Below the pieces are notes generated by a model. That model made no database searches. It saw only the letters and a list, made by a program, of their open reading frames with translations, and was not told the DNA's origin. This document shows positions 270-28,621 of a DNA stretch of 64,000 bases, piece by piece. Both the position numbers and the translations under genes were made by a program. How positions within the stretch are numbered: the stretch's first letter is position 1; the number at the start of each line of letters is the position of its first letter. Source of the DNA: Chaetoceros tenuissimus (Eukaryota > Bacillariophyta > Thalassiosirophyceae > Chaetocerotales > Chaetocerotaceae); NCBI GenBank assembly GCA_021927905.1, contig BLLK01000047.1, positions 3,162,001 through 3,226,000 of the forward strand. The letters run 5' to 3'.

Positions 270-2628
270 TTATTTCGAATTTATCCATTTATAATATCGA
301 CCTAAAATGAATGCGTTTTCTAGAGCAGTGACATGGAGATGGTGTTGATGAAGTAAATGACCTCCATTGTCCTCAATATGTAGGTGGACCGATGACTCTG
401 GACTATAGTTCTTAATTTTTTGAAAATAAGCCATTGCATTTGTAGGTGGTACGTGCTGATCATCTAATGCAGAGACCAGAAGCATGGAAGGGTAAAGATG
501 ATCCGAAATATTATGCACTGGGCAATATGATTCGATAACGGAGCAGTTTGTGTTTATTCGTGGGTCTAAAAACTCATCATATTCATGCTGGGTCAAGAAA
601 AGTGCATCATTCAGCATAGTGTTTCTGACATCAAGAAATGCATTTCTCAATACAACGGCATCAAACAATGTCGGGTGTTTATTAATAGCTGCTCCCAAAA
701 TGATACCTCCCGCTGAGAATGCTCGTGAGGCAATGAAGGGTTTGGATGATATCTCTGAAAATTCATGTATCAGACTGTTCTTCGAAACATAATCCGCAGC
801 TAAGATGAAATCTTCAATGCTATTATCTTTTTTGTGTAGACGCCCTTCTTCATGCCAAAGTGTCCCAAGTTCTCGTCCTCCTCTACAATGACAGTAAACC
901 TATTTAGGGCGTATGTATGAGATTTTGTATTATAAAAATTTAAAAATAAAGTGTGTAATGCAGACTTCAGCTTACCACAACAAACCCTCTATCTAGCAAA
1001 GGAGCAATAGTTGGGTCAAAGTTAAGATTCAAGTTTTTCCCATAACAACCATATCCAATCAAGAGAATTGGTCTTGCAGCAGTATTGAATTCACTACGTC
1101 GATGAACAATGGTTAGAGGTATATTGACTTCATCTCGGCCTGAAATCAATATCCGACGAGAGATATAGTCTTCTCCCTTGGATTGTTTGCCTATCTTCAT
1201 CTGCTTTGATTCAAAATTATACTCAGCAGTCACCGGTTCTTGTGCGGGATTCTCTATTTGGACTTTGATAGACGATGAATGGAAATTCATATTTCCAGCA
1301 GCTGTTATGATTGACAAGTGATCATCTTCATTCGCAGTAATAGCAGTCATTGGTAATATCGTCTCACTTAAATCAGATCTATTCCTAATCCGCATTCTCT
1401 GCTTGGCATCAAAAAGCGACCTCTCATACAAACACAGATATTCAGAAAAAATGTCAATGTCCTCGATGAAAAAGCCTCCCGATGTTTTGTCACTGCTTTT
1501 TATTTTGTTCGGAAAGGAATCAAGTAAAGGGAGGTCTTTGAACTTGGCTTCGAAAACCGATAAATCTCTGTCAAGGCCAAGTTTTTGATCATCTCCTTCG
1601 AATTCGGAAGTTGTATGTGCCATTATAAAAATATCATCATCCTTTCCACAGTCAACGAAGTATTGCACTCCTTTCTGTCGAAGTCGAACAAGTTGCATCT
1701 TCAAATCTACTCCTATGAGATGAATTTCATTGCTAGACTTTGACGATGAATGGATTGCAACATATTGACAACCCTTTGTCCTTTGTATATCTACAAAATG
1801 CGACCCATCATCATCACGCAGGAGCAATTCTGGTTTCGAATGCGAAAACCCAGAATCCTCCTTATCAAACAAAATAGCTGCGAAAACATTAGCTGGTCTC
1901 CCTAAATGGTCACATGTAGTAAAGTATATTGAATGATATTCTTCTTCTCCATCTTTTATTGTAGGTCCGAATTCAATATTATGAACATTCACTAAACTTT
2001 TAGAGTCATCTTCAATTATAAAACAAGAACTCAAATCAAGAATAAGGTCAATATCCGTAAATGTGTTTCGGATAACAACTTTTTGAGAAATTCCTCTATC
2101 AGTATTGTTGATGACTCTTGCAACGTATTTCTCATCTACGGATAAGCTCATAGGACCTATTTCTTCCAAATTGAAATTTGTACTGAAGAGGGTCTTTTCT
2201 TCACCAGACTTTATATGCATTCTTTTATAGCTTCGTGTCCCAGTTACCAAAGAGTCATGAAAATAATATTCATATATCCCAGTCGGTCCACTTTCTGTGA
2301 CGGTGGTATCCACCTTCATTGCAGCTTTTTGTATTTCATCCTCGATCATTTCTCGCGTCAAACCTGCTAATTTCAAATCGTCTTCAATCTTTTGACTTGT
2401 GTTACATTTTTCTTTGCGTATGAGTTCTAAATCGATACCTGTGAAGCTATGAAAACACCTTCTAGAATACCATATTCCGTCAGATTTTAATGTATCTTGT
2501 GTCTTTCTTGGTAGTTTTGACGTAGGAACATTACAAAACTGAACTGATTTTCTTGTGTTCACTGATGGGGTAGGTTTTTGGCAGACCCGTCGTAAATAAA
2601 GATTCAATTTGCTCCTTCCAATCCTCAT
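270..2628 (-). CDS. Oligopeptidase B-like serine peptidase (family S9A)
   Basis: Exons 2628-976 and 899-270; the 76-nt intron (900-975) is phase 0 and joins GFVV to VYCHCRGGRELG, the classic S9A block. The protein is about 760 aa, the usual size for oligopeptidase B. The N-terminal two thirds match the beta-propeller that gates the active site; the C-terminal third is the alpha/beta hydrolase domain. The nucleophile lies in AFSAGG (Ser about 613; the family norm is GxSAGG), followed by an Asp in ALDDQHVP (about 698) and a His in DNGGH (about 732), so the triad is complete. Such enzymes cut short peptides after basic residues. The first 20 residues are rich in Arg, Lys and Ser, which could be a mitochondrial presequence (inference). 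The start is the first ATG of the open frame. Confidence 0.88.
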
Positions 2629-22349: not shown

Positions 22350-25300
22350 ATGAGGTTCTCACAAATACATGTGACGATATTCATAGTTTTCTGCTCGTCG
22401 CTCTCGCTTTCATTTGTACCTGGAGGTATTTCATCAATCAGACCATATGGTCGAAATAATCATGGCATTCAACCAAGTACTGAGCACATTACAGAGAAGG
22501 CAATCAAAATCTTTGAGAGTCCAAACTATCCCTTTCAACAACCAAGTAATGACTTTGACAAGCTGGTTAAAGATTATTTCCCAGATGCATTGACAAATAA
22601 AGATCTGGTCGTTCAAGTTGTGCATATATTGGCTGAAAAGGGTTTCACTGCACAAAACACATTGCTAGCAACTTCATTATGTAGTGATGAATTAGCACGG
22701 CAACTGGAGGATGACTTTGGCAAAGTCTTTGGAAAGAACTTTGCCCTTGGTGGGTTGGCTGGTTTCCCCTTTGCTGGTAATACTGGCTTCAAAGCAATGT
22801 CTTCTCACATTCCTGATGAAGGATTTGCTCTATTGACCTATGGTCCTCATGTTGGTATCACGAAACATGGTGAAATAGGCAAGGTTGAAAGACCTGGAGT
22901 GAAACTTGCAGATACATGTTGTGGAAGTGCTGTTGCCGCATGTAATCATGTCGAAGACATTGCAAGAGGCAAAGCAGATCTTACTTCTACTGTTAGTGAT
23001 TTCACGGATTTTCAACAAGGTGCAGTGAAGAATCTTTTGCTTCCTCATTCCAATGCTATAATGAACGCCAAGGATAAGATGTTAGAGCTACCACATTGCC
23101 TGTATGAGTCGCAAAGTTTACTCATTGACCAAATTGTTGAGAAGGGACGTGGTGGTATTAAACGCGGCATGGTATTGCTTGGAGGTATACAAATCAATAC
23201 CGTGAGTGAAGAATTGTTATATGTATTTCAAATGAAATCTCTTCTTTCATGCATCATATTGTTTCTAATTTGTTAAATTCATATTCAAGGGGCCATCACA
23301 AGATGATTACTTTCTGCCACTTCGTTTTGATTATGTTAACCCAAAAGGTGAAGTGGTGGAAGATATGTTACCCGGCCTGAACCAGAAGTTTTTCTTCTTT
23401 GCTGATATGGTACCTCTCACGAAAAGATTCAAACCGGAGGTTGAAAATCCTTACTTTAGAGATGATAATGACGTTGAAGACGACGATGATACTCAAATAA
23501 TGGAAAAGGTAATCAAGTATAAAGATGGCAAACCAGTAGTCATAGGTATCAAGAACGATTTGGTGCAAGATGTCGATGATACCATTCCAATAGATGATAA
23601 AGAGTCAAACGATATCCCAGAAAAGTCTCCTGTTGAAAAAGATGGAACAGAAGAATCAGATGAAAAAGACGACATGATTGATTCTGAACTTCCGCTAGAA
23701 TTAAATGGAGAGAAAGAGGAAACACAGAAAATGTCAGAGAAAGCTAATATTAAGAAAGAAAAGAATGAAGTAGGAGCACGAGATGAACAAGTGGACATTG
23801 AAAGTTCTGACGAAAAGGAGGAAGTCCCATCTGAGGTCAAAGTTGATACTAGTATTTGTCAAGAAGATGATTTAGAAGCAGAGCAAACTACATCAATGGG
23901 TGAGGGAAAATCAGTATCGAAATTAGATGAAGAAATTGATACTGAAATTTCTGATGAAAAGGAGGAAGTCCCATCCATCGAGGACAGTAAGGTCGAAGCT
24001 GAAGAAGAACAAGTAGAAGAGGACTTGGAATCAGAGCAGACTACATCAACGGGTGATGAAGAAATCGATACTGAAATTTCTGATGAAAAGGAGGAAGTCC
24101 CATCCATCGAAGACAGTAAGGTCGAAGCTGAAGAAGAACAAGTAGAAGAGGACTTGGAATCAGAGCAGACTACATCAACGGGTGATGAAGAAATCGATAC
24201 TGAAATTTCTGATGAAAAGGAGGAAGTCCCATCCATCGAAGACAGTAAGGTCGAAGCTGAAGAAGAACAAGTAGAAGAGGACTTGGAATCAGAGCAGACT
24301 ACATCAACGGGTGATGAAGAAATCGATACTGAAATTTCTGATGAAAAGGAGGAAGTCCCATCCATCGAAGACAGCAAGGTCGAAGCTGAAGAAGAACAAG
24401 TAGAAGAGGACTTGGAATCAGAGCAGACTACATCAATGGGTGAGGAAGAAATCGATACTGAAATTTCTGATGAAAAGGAGGAAGTCCCGTCCATCGAAGA
24501 CAGCAAGGTCGAAGCTGAAGAAGAACAAGTAGAAGAGGACTTGGAATCAGAGCAGACTACATCAATGGGTGAGGAAGAAATTGATACTGAAATTTCTGAT
24601 GAAAAGGATAGGGATACTGAGCTCAGTGAAGCAGACGACTTGGAATCAGAGCAAAATACAGAACTTAGTCCCCAATCAAATAAAGATGCAGTATCAAACG
24701 AAGAAACAGATGATCTAGAAGAAGAACCTGATTTAGAAGCGCTCCAGAAAGAATTTGAAGCGCTTGAAAGAACTTTGATAGATAAAAATATAGAGTTGGA
24801 TATCATAGAGAAAGATACTGATGAGATCAGTAAAGCTGGTTATGCAAGAAAGGTGGCAGAATATGAAGATAAGAGGAAGCAAAAAATGATGGCATCTGAT
24901 AATTCTATTACAACAGAAAAGGCGCATGTCATGGAGAAACTATTACCAATATTGGATGAGCTACAGTCATTCTCGAAATTATACGAAGGAGTCAAGTTCA
25001 GTGAAAACTATTCTGCTTTATCTAGCGATTTTTCCAATGCATTAGAATCCTTAGGAGTAAAGGAATCGGTAGTAAAAGAAGAAATGGTTGCCAGAGAGAC
25101 TTCTGCTAAAATTGTGGGTGAAGAATTCTGTGATGATATCGAGAAGGGCAAAATCATGAAAGTTTTGAGGAGAGGATTCGAACTAGAAGAAAATGTCATT
25201 AGACCTGCAGAAGTCGTAGTTTCTCTCGGGAAAGATGAGCAGGCCGCATCTAGAGATGTAGAAGCCGAGTTGCAGCAGAGATCTTTATTGGCATCTAGAC

Positions 25301-27663
25301 TAAAGTTGGACGAGAAGCTTAGATTGGCTGAAATGAATAAATTAGATGGAGACAATGAGGAAAATAAAGACACTAATTTTCCGAAAATAGATGAGGTTGA
25401 ATTAAAACAAAGATCCATCTTGGAAGCAGCGTTAAGATTTGAAAAGGTTTCTAAAGAGGAGAAGGCCCGTATCGCAGCTCAAAAAGAAGAAGAGGCAGCA
25501 AAGCTCAAGGAAGAGGAAGAGGCTCGTATCGCAGCTCAAAAAGAAGAAGAGGCGGCAAATCTCAAGGAAGAGGAAGAGGCTCGTATCGCAGCTCAAAAAG
25601 AAGAAGAGGCGGCAAATCTCAAGGAAGAGGAAGAGGCTCGTATCGCAGCTCAAAAAGAAGAAGAGGCAGCAAAGCTCAAGGAAGAGGAAAATGCACGTCT
25701 CGCTGCCGAGGAAGAGGCAGCTAGAGTGAAAGAGCAGGAAACTCTTCTTAGAAAAGCAGCAAGAGAAGAATCAGCTCGCATTGCAGCTGAAGAAAATGAA
25801 AAGTCTTTGCTCAAGACAGAGGATTCCAAAAGCTCATCTGTTGAAGAGACTGATAGCATAGCTTCATTAGAAAGTAAAGAAGAGAATGACCTAAAGGATA
25901 CACAAATGTCAGAAGAAGATGAGCGTGCAGAAGCAATTGAGGATGAGCTGAATCGCCGCCGTGAGGAGAAGGAAAAGGAAAATGCTCGGATTGCTGCAGA
26001 AGAAGCAGAAAAGGCACGCAAAATTGCAGAAAAAGAAGAGGCCATCAAATTGAAGACCGAGGAAGAGGAGAAAAGACGAATTGAAACTGAAAAGGAAGAG
26101 AAGGAAAAAATGAGAATTGAGAAAGAGGAAAGGGAACGTTTAGCTGCTGAAGATGAAGCGGAAAGAATTAGGGCAGGAGAAGAAGAGAAAGCTCGTCGTC
26201 TTAAGTTGCAAGAAACAATTCAAGCAAAAGCACCTTCCGAAACTGCAGGAACAGGGCAAAACAGGAGGCAAAGAAGAGTCATTGATCAAACATCATTTTC
26301 ACAAGACAATGCATTGCAATTTACAAACCCTGGATTATTTGAAATTCCTGCCATGAGAAGGGTAGCGGTGTCACCAACTAAATCTGAATTGGAGGAAGAT
26401 TTGACAGATGATGAAAGCTTTGACGAAGAAACAACAAACTCAAAAAGGTTCAAAGCCCGAGCACCAGATCGTTTTGAAGCAACTGAGTCCAACTCCAATG
26501 TTATCAAGCCTCGCCGTCCAGCTGCTGTATCTAAAGAAACTTTTGAAGAGTCTACATTCCAAAGTACTGATGAACTTACAAATGAAGTTGAAGATATCGA
26601 TACAGATGATAGCGCTAATATGGATCCTGACACCGAAGAAATAGCCATTGGTGTAACGAACCCCCCTTCAAGTGAGGAGGAGGAGGAAGAAACAGAAGCT
26701 GATGCCTTTTCTGCTTCTGATTCTGGTGAACCCAGTACTTTTATGTCACGGCGTAAATTTTATCGCTTGTCCCTTCCTGAAGATGCCTCAGAATCAGAAT
26801 TCATCATTGAAGTCCGGGAATACTTTGAGAAAAGTTACATAAATGTCGAAGCTACTGGTTTCCACGATATTATTTTCCGCGGTGATGATGGCTCTGCAAT
26901 ATTCAGAATTGAGAATCTAAGAGTACCATCCATGAGAAATGAGGGTTCGACAGAGCTAGAGAATAGTATCATGGTAGCTTTGTACTTCATGGCTAGACCA
27001 GATCTTGTATCCGGAGAGATGATGCAGTTGAGCAGTTTTGGTGGAGTTGCTCCAATTCTAGCTTCTGTTGGTTCTGCACTTGCAAAAAAACAAAGGGGAA
27101 ACCATATCCCTGAGACTCTGACAAGAATATTGTTCACTGATGTAAGACGTGATATAGCTCAGACTTGTATTGAAAATCTTCAATCGGCAGGATTCCCGGG
27201 TAACAAGGTAGACCTAGGAAATATGGACTGGGAAAGTAGGATTCCTGGTTCCTTAGAAAATAGATTCAACTTGATTGTTGGATTCAACAACTATGGGGAA
27301 GCACAAGAAACTGATGCAGTTTCACATGCTATAGCGAAAAGTCTAAGATCAAGTCCTTACGATGCAGCTGTAGGAAGACAACATATTCGTGGAAGATTGG
27401 TGTATTTCACGAGACAAGTTGATGACCTTTACACTTTACTTCGAAGAAATCTAGTCGAAGGCTATAAGATGAAAACTACTGTGGAAGAGTTCAAACTTGA
27501 GAAGATGGAAGGTAGCACTCTCATTGGAGATTCTCTACAAGATATTCGCGCGCAAGTTGATGAAGCCAAATTTGAAGATCCAGAAGAGCTTCAGTTCACT
27601 ACTCTCTTTGGATTCCATGACAGAAGTTTCAATGGACAGGCTGTTGGTGGCGCCTTCTGGTAA
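22350..27663 (+). CDS. LCIB-type carbonic anhydrase domain fused to acidic repeats, coiled coil and methyltransferase-like domain
   Basis: Exons 22350-23201 and 23290-27663 (88-nt phase-0 intron) encode about 1741 aa. Residues 1-20 are a signal peptide ending SLS|FVP, fitting plastid import. Residues about 40-330 are an LCIB domain: SLCSDELAR, LGGLAGFPFAGNTGF, SHIPDEG, YGPHVGI and CCGSAVAACNH, which supply the Cys-His-Cys zinc ligands (about 111, 167, 191). Splicing joins GGIQINT to GPSQDDYFLPLRFDY, normal LCIB continuation. The frame then stays open: acidic tandem repeats (about 498-724), Lys/Glu coiled coil with EEARIAAQK repeats (about 1005-1275), and a C-terminal domain (about 1435-1741) resembling METTL21-like methyltransferases but without the Gly-rich SAM motif. 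LCIB proteins act in the CO2-concentrating mechanism. The fusion is uninterrupted for 4.3 kb; its role as a scaffold is inference. Confidence 0.85.
23929..24609 (+). repeat. Acidic 129-bp tandem repeats in the LCIB fusion gene, five full units plus a partial
   Basis: Unit starts fall at 23929, 24058, 24187, 24316, 24445 and 24574, an exact 129-bp (43-codon) period. Each unit encodes EEIDTEISDEKEEVPSIED followed by SKVEAEEEQVEEDLESEQTT. Copies differ at only a handful of bases. The period is a multiple of three, so unit number can change without breaking the frame. Confidence 0.97.
25459..25692 (+). repeat. 57-bp tandem repeats encoding EARIAAQKEEEAA, four units
   Basis: Four near-identical 19-codon units (EEEARIAAQKEEEAAxLKE) inside the coiled-coil part of the LCIB fusion. 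The central two are virtually identical; the outer two vary slightly (K for N). They extend a charged single alpha-helix or coiled coil. Confidence 0.93.
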
Positions 27664-27728: not shown

Positions 27729-28621
27729 TCAGTGTCTATTAGAATATCTCCTCACTACAGCATATATTTTGTCACCATGACAAAGTCCATAACTTTGTAT
27801 GAAAAGATGATAACTCATCACTATATTCTCATCTTTTCTTTCATTAGAAAGAGAAATAAGTTCCCATCCTGTCCTTATTTGATCTCGATCTTTCTTTCTC
27901 CCAAGAAGTCCCCAATCCTCTTCATAAATTGATTGGATTGCTCTTTTCAAATCGCTCACAGAATCCTCTGGATGAGCAATGATTTCTATGATAGGTTCAT
28001 TACTCAATTGTACCTCTGCAAATTCTTCCACAGAAGTAATCGCTGCTTTCGATGATTCCTTTGATTCATTTTCTTCTAAATAATTCTCAAATAAGAGTCG
28101 AATAGTATATACATCATGAATTCTATCTTCTTGAAGTTCTTCTAATGAAAACATTTCACATGCGAGGGCTACCCGTCCATCACCAGCTTTGTTTAAACCC
28201 ATCATATCCTTATCCATTAATTGATTATATGCAGTGATAATTTCATTCATTTTATTCTGTGACATTTCTGTAGATAACTCTGGGTTTAAATCTGGGTGGT
28301 ACTTTTTAGCCATCTGGATGTTTCAAATTTGTTAGCATGTATACATATCATTACAATTGTATTGGGAAAAGAAGAATCATATAAACTCACATTTCTAAAA
28401 GCTGTTTTGATATCATCTTCTGTAGCGCTTGTTTTCAGATTTAGAATTGCATACGGTGACCTAGGTCTACTTGAAGATGAAAAGTGGTGTATATGCTTGA
28501 CTTTTTCAACTATGTGAGGTGGTATAATGACATCGATATGGTAACATTTTCTTAGACGGCTTGCTTCTATACTTTGTAAGTTGTTGAAACGACGAGAGAA
28601 GTTAAGCATGGCACTTCTCAT
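27729..28621 (-). CDS. J-domain (DnaJ-like) protein, probably mitochondrial
   Basis: Exons 28621-28391 and 28313-27729 with a 77-nt phase-0 intron give 271 aa. The join rebuilds a J domain, SPYAILNLKTSATEDDIKTAF then MAKKYHPDLNPE, with the HPD motif that stimulates Hsp70 ATPase. The domain sits at about residues 50-110, after a Ser/Arg/His-rich leader (MRSAMLNFSRRFNNL), likely a mitochondrial presequence. The ~160-residue C-terminal part has no zinc-finger or client-binding motif I recognise. It is tail-to-tail with the LCIB fusion gene, 65 bp apart. A second ATG four codons in is an alternative start. Confidence 0.85.

Follow-up and report, generated by a model that had tools for sequence, protein, structure and literature searches.

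What is a carbonic anhydrase-type domain doing at the head of a protein of 1741 residues? The question is raised by a gene in a 64,000-nucleotide stretch of the genome of the diatom Chaetoceros tenuissimus (the window; G000:C34:3162001-3226000, 38.8% G+C), which runs on the plus strand from an ATG at 22350 to a stop codon at 27661-27663 and whose product has a mass of 196 kDa, a net charge of -230 and an isoelectric point (pI) of 4.36. Searches of the genome, represented by one assembly of 41,027,912 bases in 68 contigs, together with comparisons against profiles and the sequences of solved structures, indicated that this gene joins an LCIB-type carbonic anhydrase head to a GrpE-like domain, a long charged helix-prone stretch and, at family level, a degenerate methyltransferase-like domain (Table 1). 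PsbO of the same genome matches five sequences of the Protein Data Bank, which come from Chaetoceros gracilis and Thalassiosira, with E-values of 1e-137 or better. We tentatively propose that the product of the gene is a plastid scaffold in which a GrpE-derived stalk and a charged rod carry an LCIB-type carbonic anhydrase, the opposite end being a binding head.

At the DNA level there is good support for a single long protein that begins with a plastid-type N-terminus and an LCIB head. Exon 2 (23290-27663) is free of stops over 1457 codons, homology continues across the splice junction, a single signal-like stretch is present and the repeat DNA was found only here. The log10 chance of a stop-free exon 2 is -44 when calculated from base composition alone, a figure that ignores the Glu/Lys-rich make-up of the exon, and the frame stays open across every module boundary. 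At 23290 the LCIB homology resumes in frame, IQINT followed by GPSQDDYFLPLRFDYVNPKGEVVED lining up by eye with the paralog tail IQINTPEGFSDYFLPKSFKLYNNKGKVVED. Synonymous codon usage gave a weak signal, other frames often scoring as high as the coding frame. An earlier, sequence-only reading of this DNA had described one frame with a single 88-nt intron inside the LCIB domain, and the start, the intron and the frame are as it described them.

The N-terminus, MRFSQIHVTIFIVFCSSLSLSFVPGG, contains a hydrophobic stretch followed by Phe (SLS-FVP), an arrangement typical of diatom plastid proteins, and by eye bears out the plastid-type signal that had been suggested for it. The strongest hydrophobic 17-residue stretch of the protein begins at residue 8 (2.04); because the next (1.49, at residue 1533) falls within the methyltransferase-like domain, nothing resembling a second targeting signal is seen further downstream. 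For each of the modules (LCIB, GrpE and methyltransferase family), at least one relative that stands alone likewise has an N-terminus that looks plastid-type by eye. A review describes LCIB as an ortholog of theta carbonic anhydrase (theta-CA), which is lumenal in Phaeodactylum (PMC7215798), and for this reason the thylakoid lumen may be an alternative location of the fusion protein.

The LCIB domain named by the sequence-only reading is there, with its zinc ligand positions. Residues 80-284 of exon 1 match LCIB_C_CA (PF18599) with an E-value of 7.2e-65 (218.8 bits; cut-off 25), and the nearest solved chains are 6kfs and 5b5y, the latter being PtLCIB4 (E 1.1e-54). In an alignment that took seven of the 14 LCIB places found in the genome, C111, D113, H153, H167 and C191 are invariant in all seven sequences, and R117 agrees with the PtLCIB4 position and recurs in four of the other six rows, with His in the last two. 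C111, H167 and C191 make up the Cys-His-Cys set that we take to be the zinc ligands of LCIB-type carbonic anhydrases, and D113 and R117 the Asp-Arg pair that presumably goes with them. The head shares its domain and active-site positions with LCIB/LCIC, with PtLCIB4 and with other theta/beta-type carbonic anhydrases of diatoms. PtLCIB4 has carbonic anhydrase activity, and because the head is close to it we predict that the head is likely to be catalytically active.

The genome contains at least 14 LCIB places, by our count eleven genes, or ten besides the fusion gene. Uninterrupted open frames at the other matches, which may leave out later exons, are 638 amino acids or shorter. In these lower-bound counts none of the ten coincides with a GrpE or methyltransferase-family match at one place, whereas the fusion gene does. 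A tree of eight LCIB domains from seven of the approximately 11 genes, together with three distant prokaryote loci recovered from 158 pattern matches in a genome contig collection, gave long-branch warnings and did not place the window copy firmly; six pattern matches to exon 1 in viral contigs yielded no confirmed relative. Three observations concern the LCIB genes themselves. The 638-amino-acid frame, at G000:C19:789204-790613, has two tandem LCIB domains and, by eye, a plastid-type N-terminus. Three LCIB genes look divergent and have no signal-like N-terminus in their open frames, and the two of them that were aligned are 32-33% identical to the window copy. On the minus strand of G000:C44, a frame that overlaps or adjoins an LCIB match repeats QPEESVEDRIAALK eight times, with QSMQA after it in seven cases.

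For the middle of the protein the sequence-only reading had listed acidic repeats, which were borne out, and had overlooked a GrpE-like domain beside them. GrpE (PF01025) is the sole Pfam match of exon 2 at an E-value of 1 or better (E 5.1e-14 in the whole exon, 5.4e-16 for the segment alone). Solved GrpE structures are matched as well, namely 3a6m, which we take to be Thermus GrpE (E 5.6e-7), and 1dkg (E 0.0022), weaker rows such as Hsp101 (0.04) looking like chance. A genome-wide search scored seven candidates, and because just four places pass, charged helices in general do not account for the match. The closest relative is a second plastid-type GrpE at G000:C16:311931 (45% identity over 163 amino acids, E 3e-43), a stand-alone frame of 267 amino acids with an N-terminus that is plastid-type by eye. 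Similarity to the copies classed by eye as mitochondrial-type (29% over 86 amino acids, E 1.6e-8) and as the other plastid-type GrpE (E 0.034, non-significant) is lower. Two stretches that matter in GrpE, one NLxRA-like and one HEA/HQA-like, are recognisable, complete or almost complete, in the other GrpEs of the alignment and are absent from the fusion copy, which has DELQSFS and ETSAKIVG instead. The C16 paralog lacks the same two stretches (DELKTLT and RRVQAV) and shares, by eye, the acidic flanks, but it stands alone whereas the fusion copy does not.

These findings bear on the possibility that the GrpE-like domain still binds plastid DnaK and thereby brings LCIB-type activity to the Hsp70 machine, for example in the assembly or repair of carbon-fixing complexes. 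A score of 52.7 bits, above the Pfam cut-off of 25.8, and an alignment with solved GrpE that reaches the C-terminal part including the IRPA stretch both speak for such coupling. Because the fusion copy lacks the NLxRA-like and HEA/HQA-like stretches, however, as does its nearest plastid-type paralog, exchange-factor activity is doubtful, and we consider this explanation unlikely.

The C-terminal domain had been read as methyltransferase-like, and here the likeness holds for a family while the window copy itself is degenerate. On its own the window domain has no match in Pfam (E 1), NCBIfam (E 1) or the sequences of the Protein Data Bank (E 5). A search of the genome returned four further family members, which we call C54, C16, C38 and C14; the domain lies near the N-terminus in the first three and is C-terminal, after a long charged helix, in C14. 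C54, C16 and C38 have, by eye, a GT-AG intron at one shared position within the motif I codons, whereas the window copy and C14 read through. Against Methyltransf_16, C54 scores E 2.7e-10; in single-sequence searches at a threshold of E 10, three of the five members match (best E 1.4e-10) and the window copy matches no family. A genome-wide Methyltransf_16 search placed C54 (27.3 bits) and C16 (26.6 bits) above the curated cut-off of 21. When a profile of all five members was compared by hhalign with 15 Methyltransf_16 sequences of the same genome (from 15 of 20 loci, themselves the best of 40 places), the probability was 98.4% (E 8.1e-15), compared with 0.8% (E 0.074) for an LCIB control and 0.7% (E 0.079) for the window copy alone. 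Among solved chains, CaMKMT (4pwy) was matched at E 0.0012, the six other chains listed with it being at chance level. Because the five-member profile matches and the window copy alone does not, the assignment rests on the family and not on the window copy.

Relative to METTL21/CaMKMT-type lysine methyltransferases, to which profile homology extends, the window copy lacks key residues of the S-adenosylmethionine (SAM) motifs. Its motif I reads MQLSSFGGVA, compared with LELGSGVGVG in C54, IEIGSNVGLG in C38, LQIGSEKGVG in C16 and MQFKSRTSIS in C14; at the GxD position it has GFN (VGFNN), where the other four have GCD or GSD (IGCDC in C54). We read the window copy as a retired methyltransferase fold. 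Two EL(K/Q)QRS(I/L)L motifs, noticed by eye first, are common to the fusion protein and C14, which suggests that the rod and C-terminus derive from a C14-like gene; both proteins also combine a long charged helix with a C-terminal domain that has lost motif I. C14 differs in having its own signal-like N-terminus, and no LCIB or GrpE match occurs at that place. Two family alignments were made, the first of four of the five members and the second of all five, and in the family tree the nearest paralog of the window copy was not resolved. DUF1995, a candidate identity for the C-terminus, was rejected: its 11 places in the genome overlap none of the five family places. Pattern matches to the domain in viral contigs (101) and in the genome contig collection (44) gave no confirmed relative.

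The members appear to form a small family, which we do not claim to be undescribed, with N-termini that are plastid-type by eye and METTL21-like domains on long rods or repeat tails. One of them, C38 (G000:C38, minus strand, approximately 695000-700650), keeps most of motif I and ends in a tail, 1443 residues long or longer, that contains 13 GAGFNP-type motifs and has a pI of 8.5, its frame running to the end of the stretch examined. These motifs resemble the GTGYNP of PYCO1 (PMC10288592), and C38 is a candidate condensate protein.

Between the GrpE-like and methyltransferase-like domains lies the part that had been called a coiled coil. A long charged helix-prone stretch is indeed present, 30% Glu and 22% Lys plus Arg; by a crude Fourier measure the hydrophobic power is 0.19 at 3.5 residues and 2.26 at 3.75. 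On this measure the usual 3.5-residue periodicity is not clear, and a charged single helix seems more likely here than a classical coiled coil; if continuous, it would be approximately 40 nm long at 0.15 nm per residue. The 57-bp repeats within it amount to 4.4 copies with a 94% match.

Table 1 Features of the fusion gene, in window coordinates.
Feature	Position	Residues	Strand	Remarks
Exon 1	22350-23201		+	Signal-like N-terminus and most of the LCIB_C_CA domain
Intron	23202-23289		+	88 nt, GT-AG, GTGAGT...TTCAAG
LCIB domain end	23290-23442		+	DYFLPLRFDYVNPKGEVVED, like paralog tails by eye
Acidic linker	23458-24717	341-760	+	Net charge -139, pI 4.05
Acidic tandem array	23926-24608		+	43-residue repeat, 129 bp x 5.3 copies, 98% match
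GrpE-like domain	~24709-25227	~758-930	+	PF01025
Two EL(K/Q)QRS(I/L)L motifs	25243-25437	943, 987	+	Common to the C14 paralog
Charged helix-prone stretch	25384-26232	983-1265	+	Proline-free, with 57-bp repeats
Acidic low-complexity linker	26233-26730	1266-1431	+	pI 4.12 (residues 1271-1430)
Putative degenerate METTL21-type methyltransferase-like domain	26731-27663	1432-1741 and stop	+	Assigned by family profile

How might such a protein have arisen, and what might it do? We propose that an LCIB-type carbonic anhydrase was joined to two further plastid-type modules, a plastid GrpE that has diverged and the rod and methyltransferase-like part of a C14-type protein. The product would be one nuclear-coded, probably stromal plastid protein whose LCIB head is probably still able to interconvert CO2 and bicarbonate. 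Its GrpE-derived part would probably dimerise the molecule, the acidic linker and the charged helix, of up to approximately 280 residues, would serve as a long spacer, and the degenerate methyltransferase-like domain would probably be a binding head and not an enzyme, so that the whole would localise carbonic anhydrase activity to a defined site in the plastid. A scaffold role for a long LCIB-headed protein can reasonably be inferred. If one polypeptide does have all three modules, it would connect, in the plastids of diatoms, a carbon-concentrating enzyme family with a module of chaperone type, and would offer a direct handle on the positioning of stromal carbonic anhydrases. We regard as quite unlikely a bolder form of this idea, a carbon-concentrating scaffold with carbonic anhydrase, chaperone cofactor and retired methyltransferase on a rod that could reach approximately 40 nm, where the plastid Hsp70 system would position the CO2 chemistry or be coupled to it; a literature search of open-licence papers found none on LCIB or carbonic anhydrase fused to GrpE.

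Several points weigh against the scaffold proposal. The evidence for the fusion is DNA sequence and that for the order of its modules a single genome, its plastid signal was judged by eye, and its GrpE part misses the two stretches common to the canonical GrpEs compared. A structure predicted from the C-terminal sequence by itself had a mean predicted local distance difference test score of 33.9, too low to be of use. Membership in the LCIB family is no guarantee of activity: Chlamydomonas LCIB/LCIC, recombinant and native, are reported to have no carbonic anhydrase activity in a paper citing Jin 2016 (PMC8825250). According to the same paper, Chlamydomonas LCIB is pyrenoid-peripheral and relocates with CO2 (PMC8825250); nothing in our analysis places the fusion protein at the pyrenoid.

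Alternatively, the locus might give rise to two or more proteins, an ordinary LCIB protein, from early termination or an alternative splice, plus a second protein with GrpE, rod and methyltransferase-like parts. This would fit the modest length of the other LCIB frames, the longest of which is the double-LCIB frame, and the existence of GrpE and methyltransferase-like relatives as separate genes. The uninterrupted frame of exon 2 and the lack of a second signal-peptide-like stretch in the downstream part argue against it, and we judge it improbable.

That the product is instead a pyrenoid matrix linker or condensate former like EPYC1 or PYCO1 is very unlikely. The sequence-only reading had drawn this comparison while itself flagging the acidity, and the fusion protein does share with those proteins a long, low-complexity region of tandem repeats, here in a plastid-type protein headed by a carbon-concentrating enzyme family. 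The likeness fails, however, on charge and on stickers. PYCO1 is basic (pI 10.03) and acts through aromatic stickers (PMC10288592), and EPYC1 too is basic, whereas the fusion linker has a pI of approximately 4. The 230-residue repeat array has no aromatic residue and the 415 residues of the linker have one, and neither a KWSP nor a G(A/T)G(F/Y)NP motif is present.

Among its five full copies the acidic array varies at six codons, and at four of these the change is only synonymous; one 68% partial match lies directly upstream of the array and overlaps it. An assembly chimera of unrelated genes, for which the position of this array between the LCIB and GrpE parts could be cited, is hardly credible, given that the array DNA turned up nowhere else in the genome (in a DNA search that may skip simple or very common words), that the frame is open through every boundary and that the genome was built from Illumina plus Nanopore reads (PMC8613185).

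Convergent to the fusion gene, on the minus strand at 27729-28621, lies a gene for a J-domain protein, whose closeness to a gene carrying GrpE may be chance; it matches DnaJ at E 2.4e-14 with a splice made by eye and at E 2.6e-4 as an unspliced frame.

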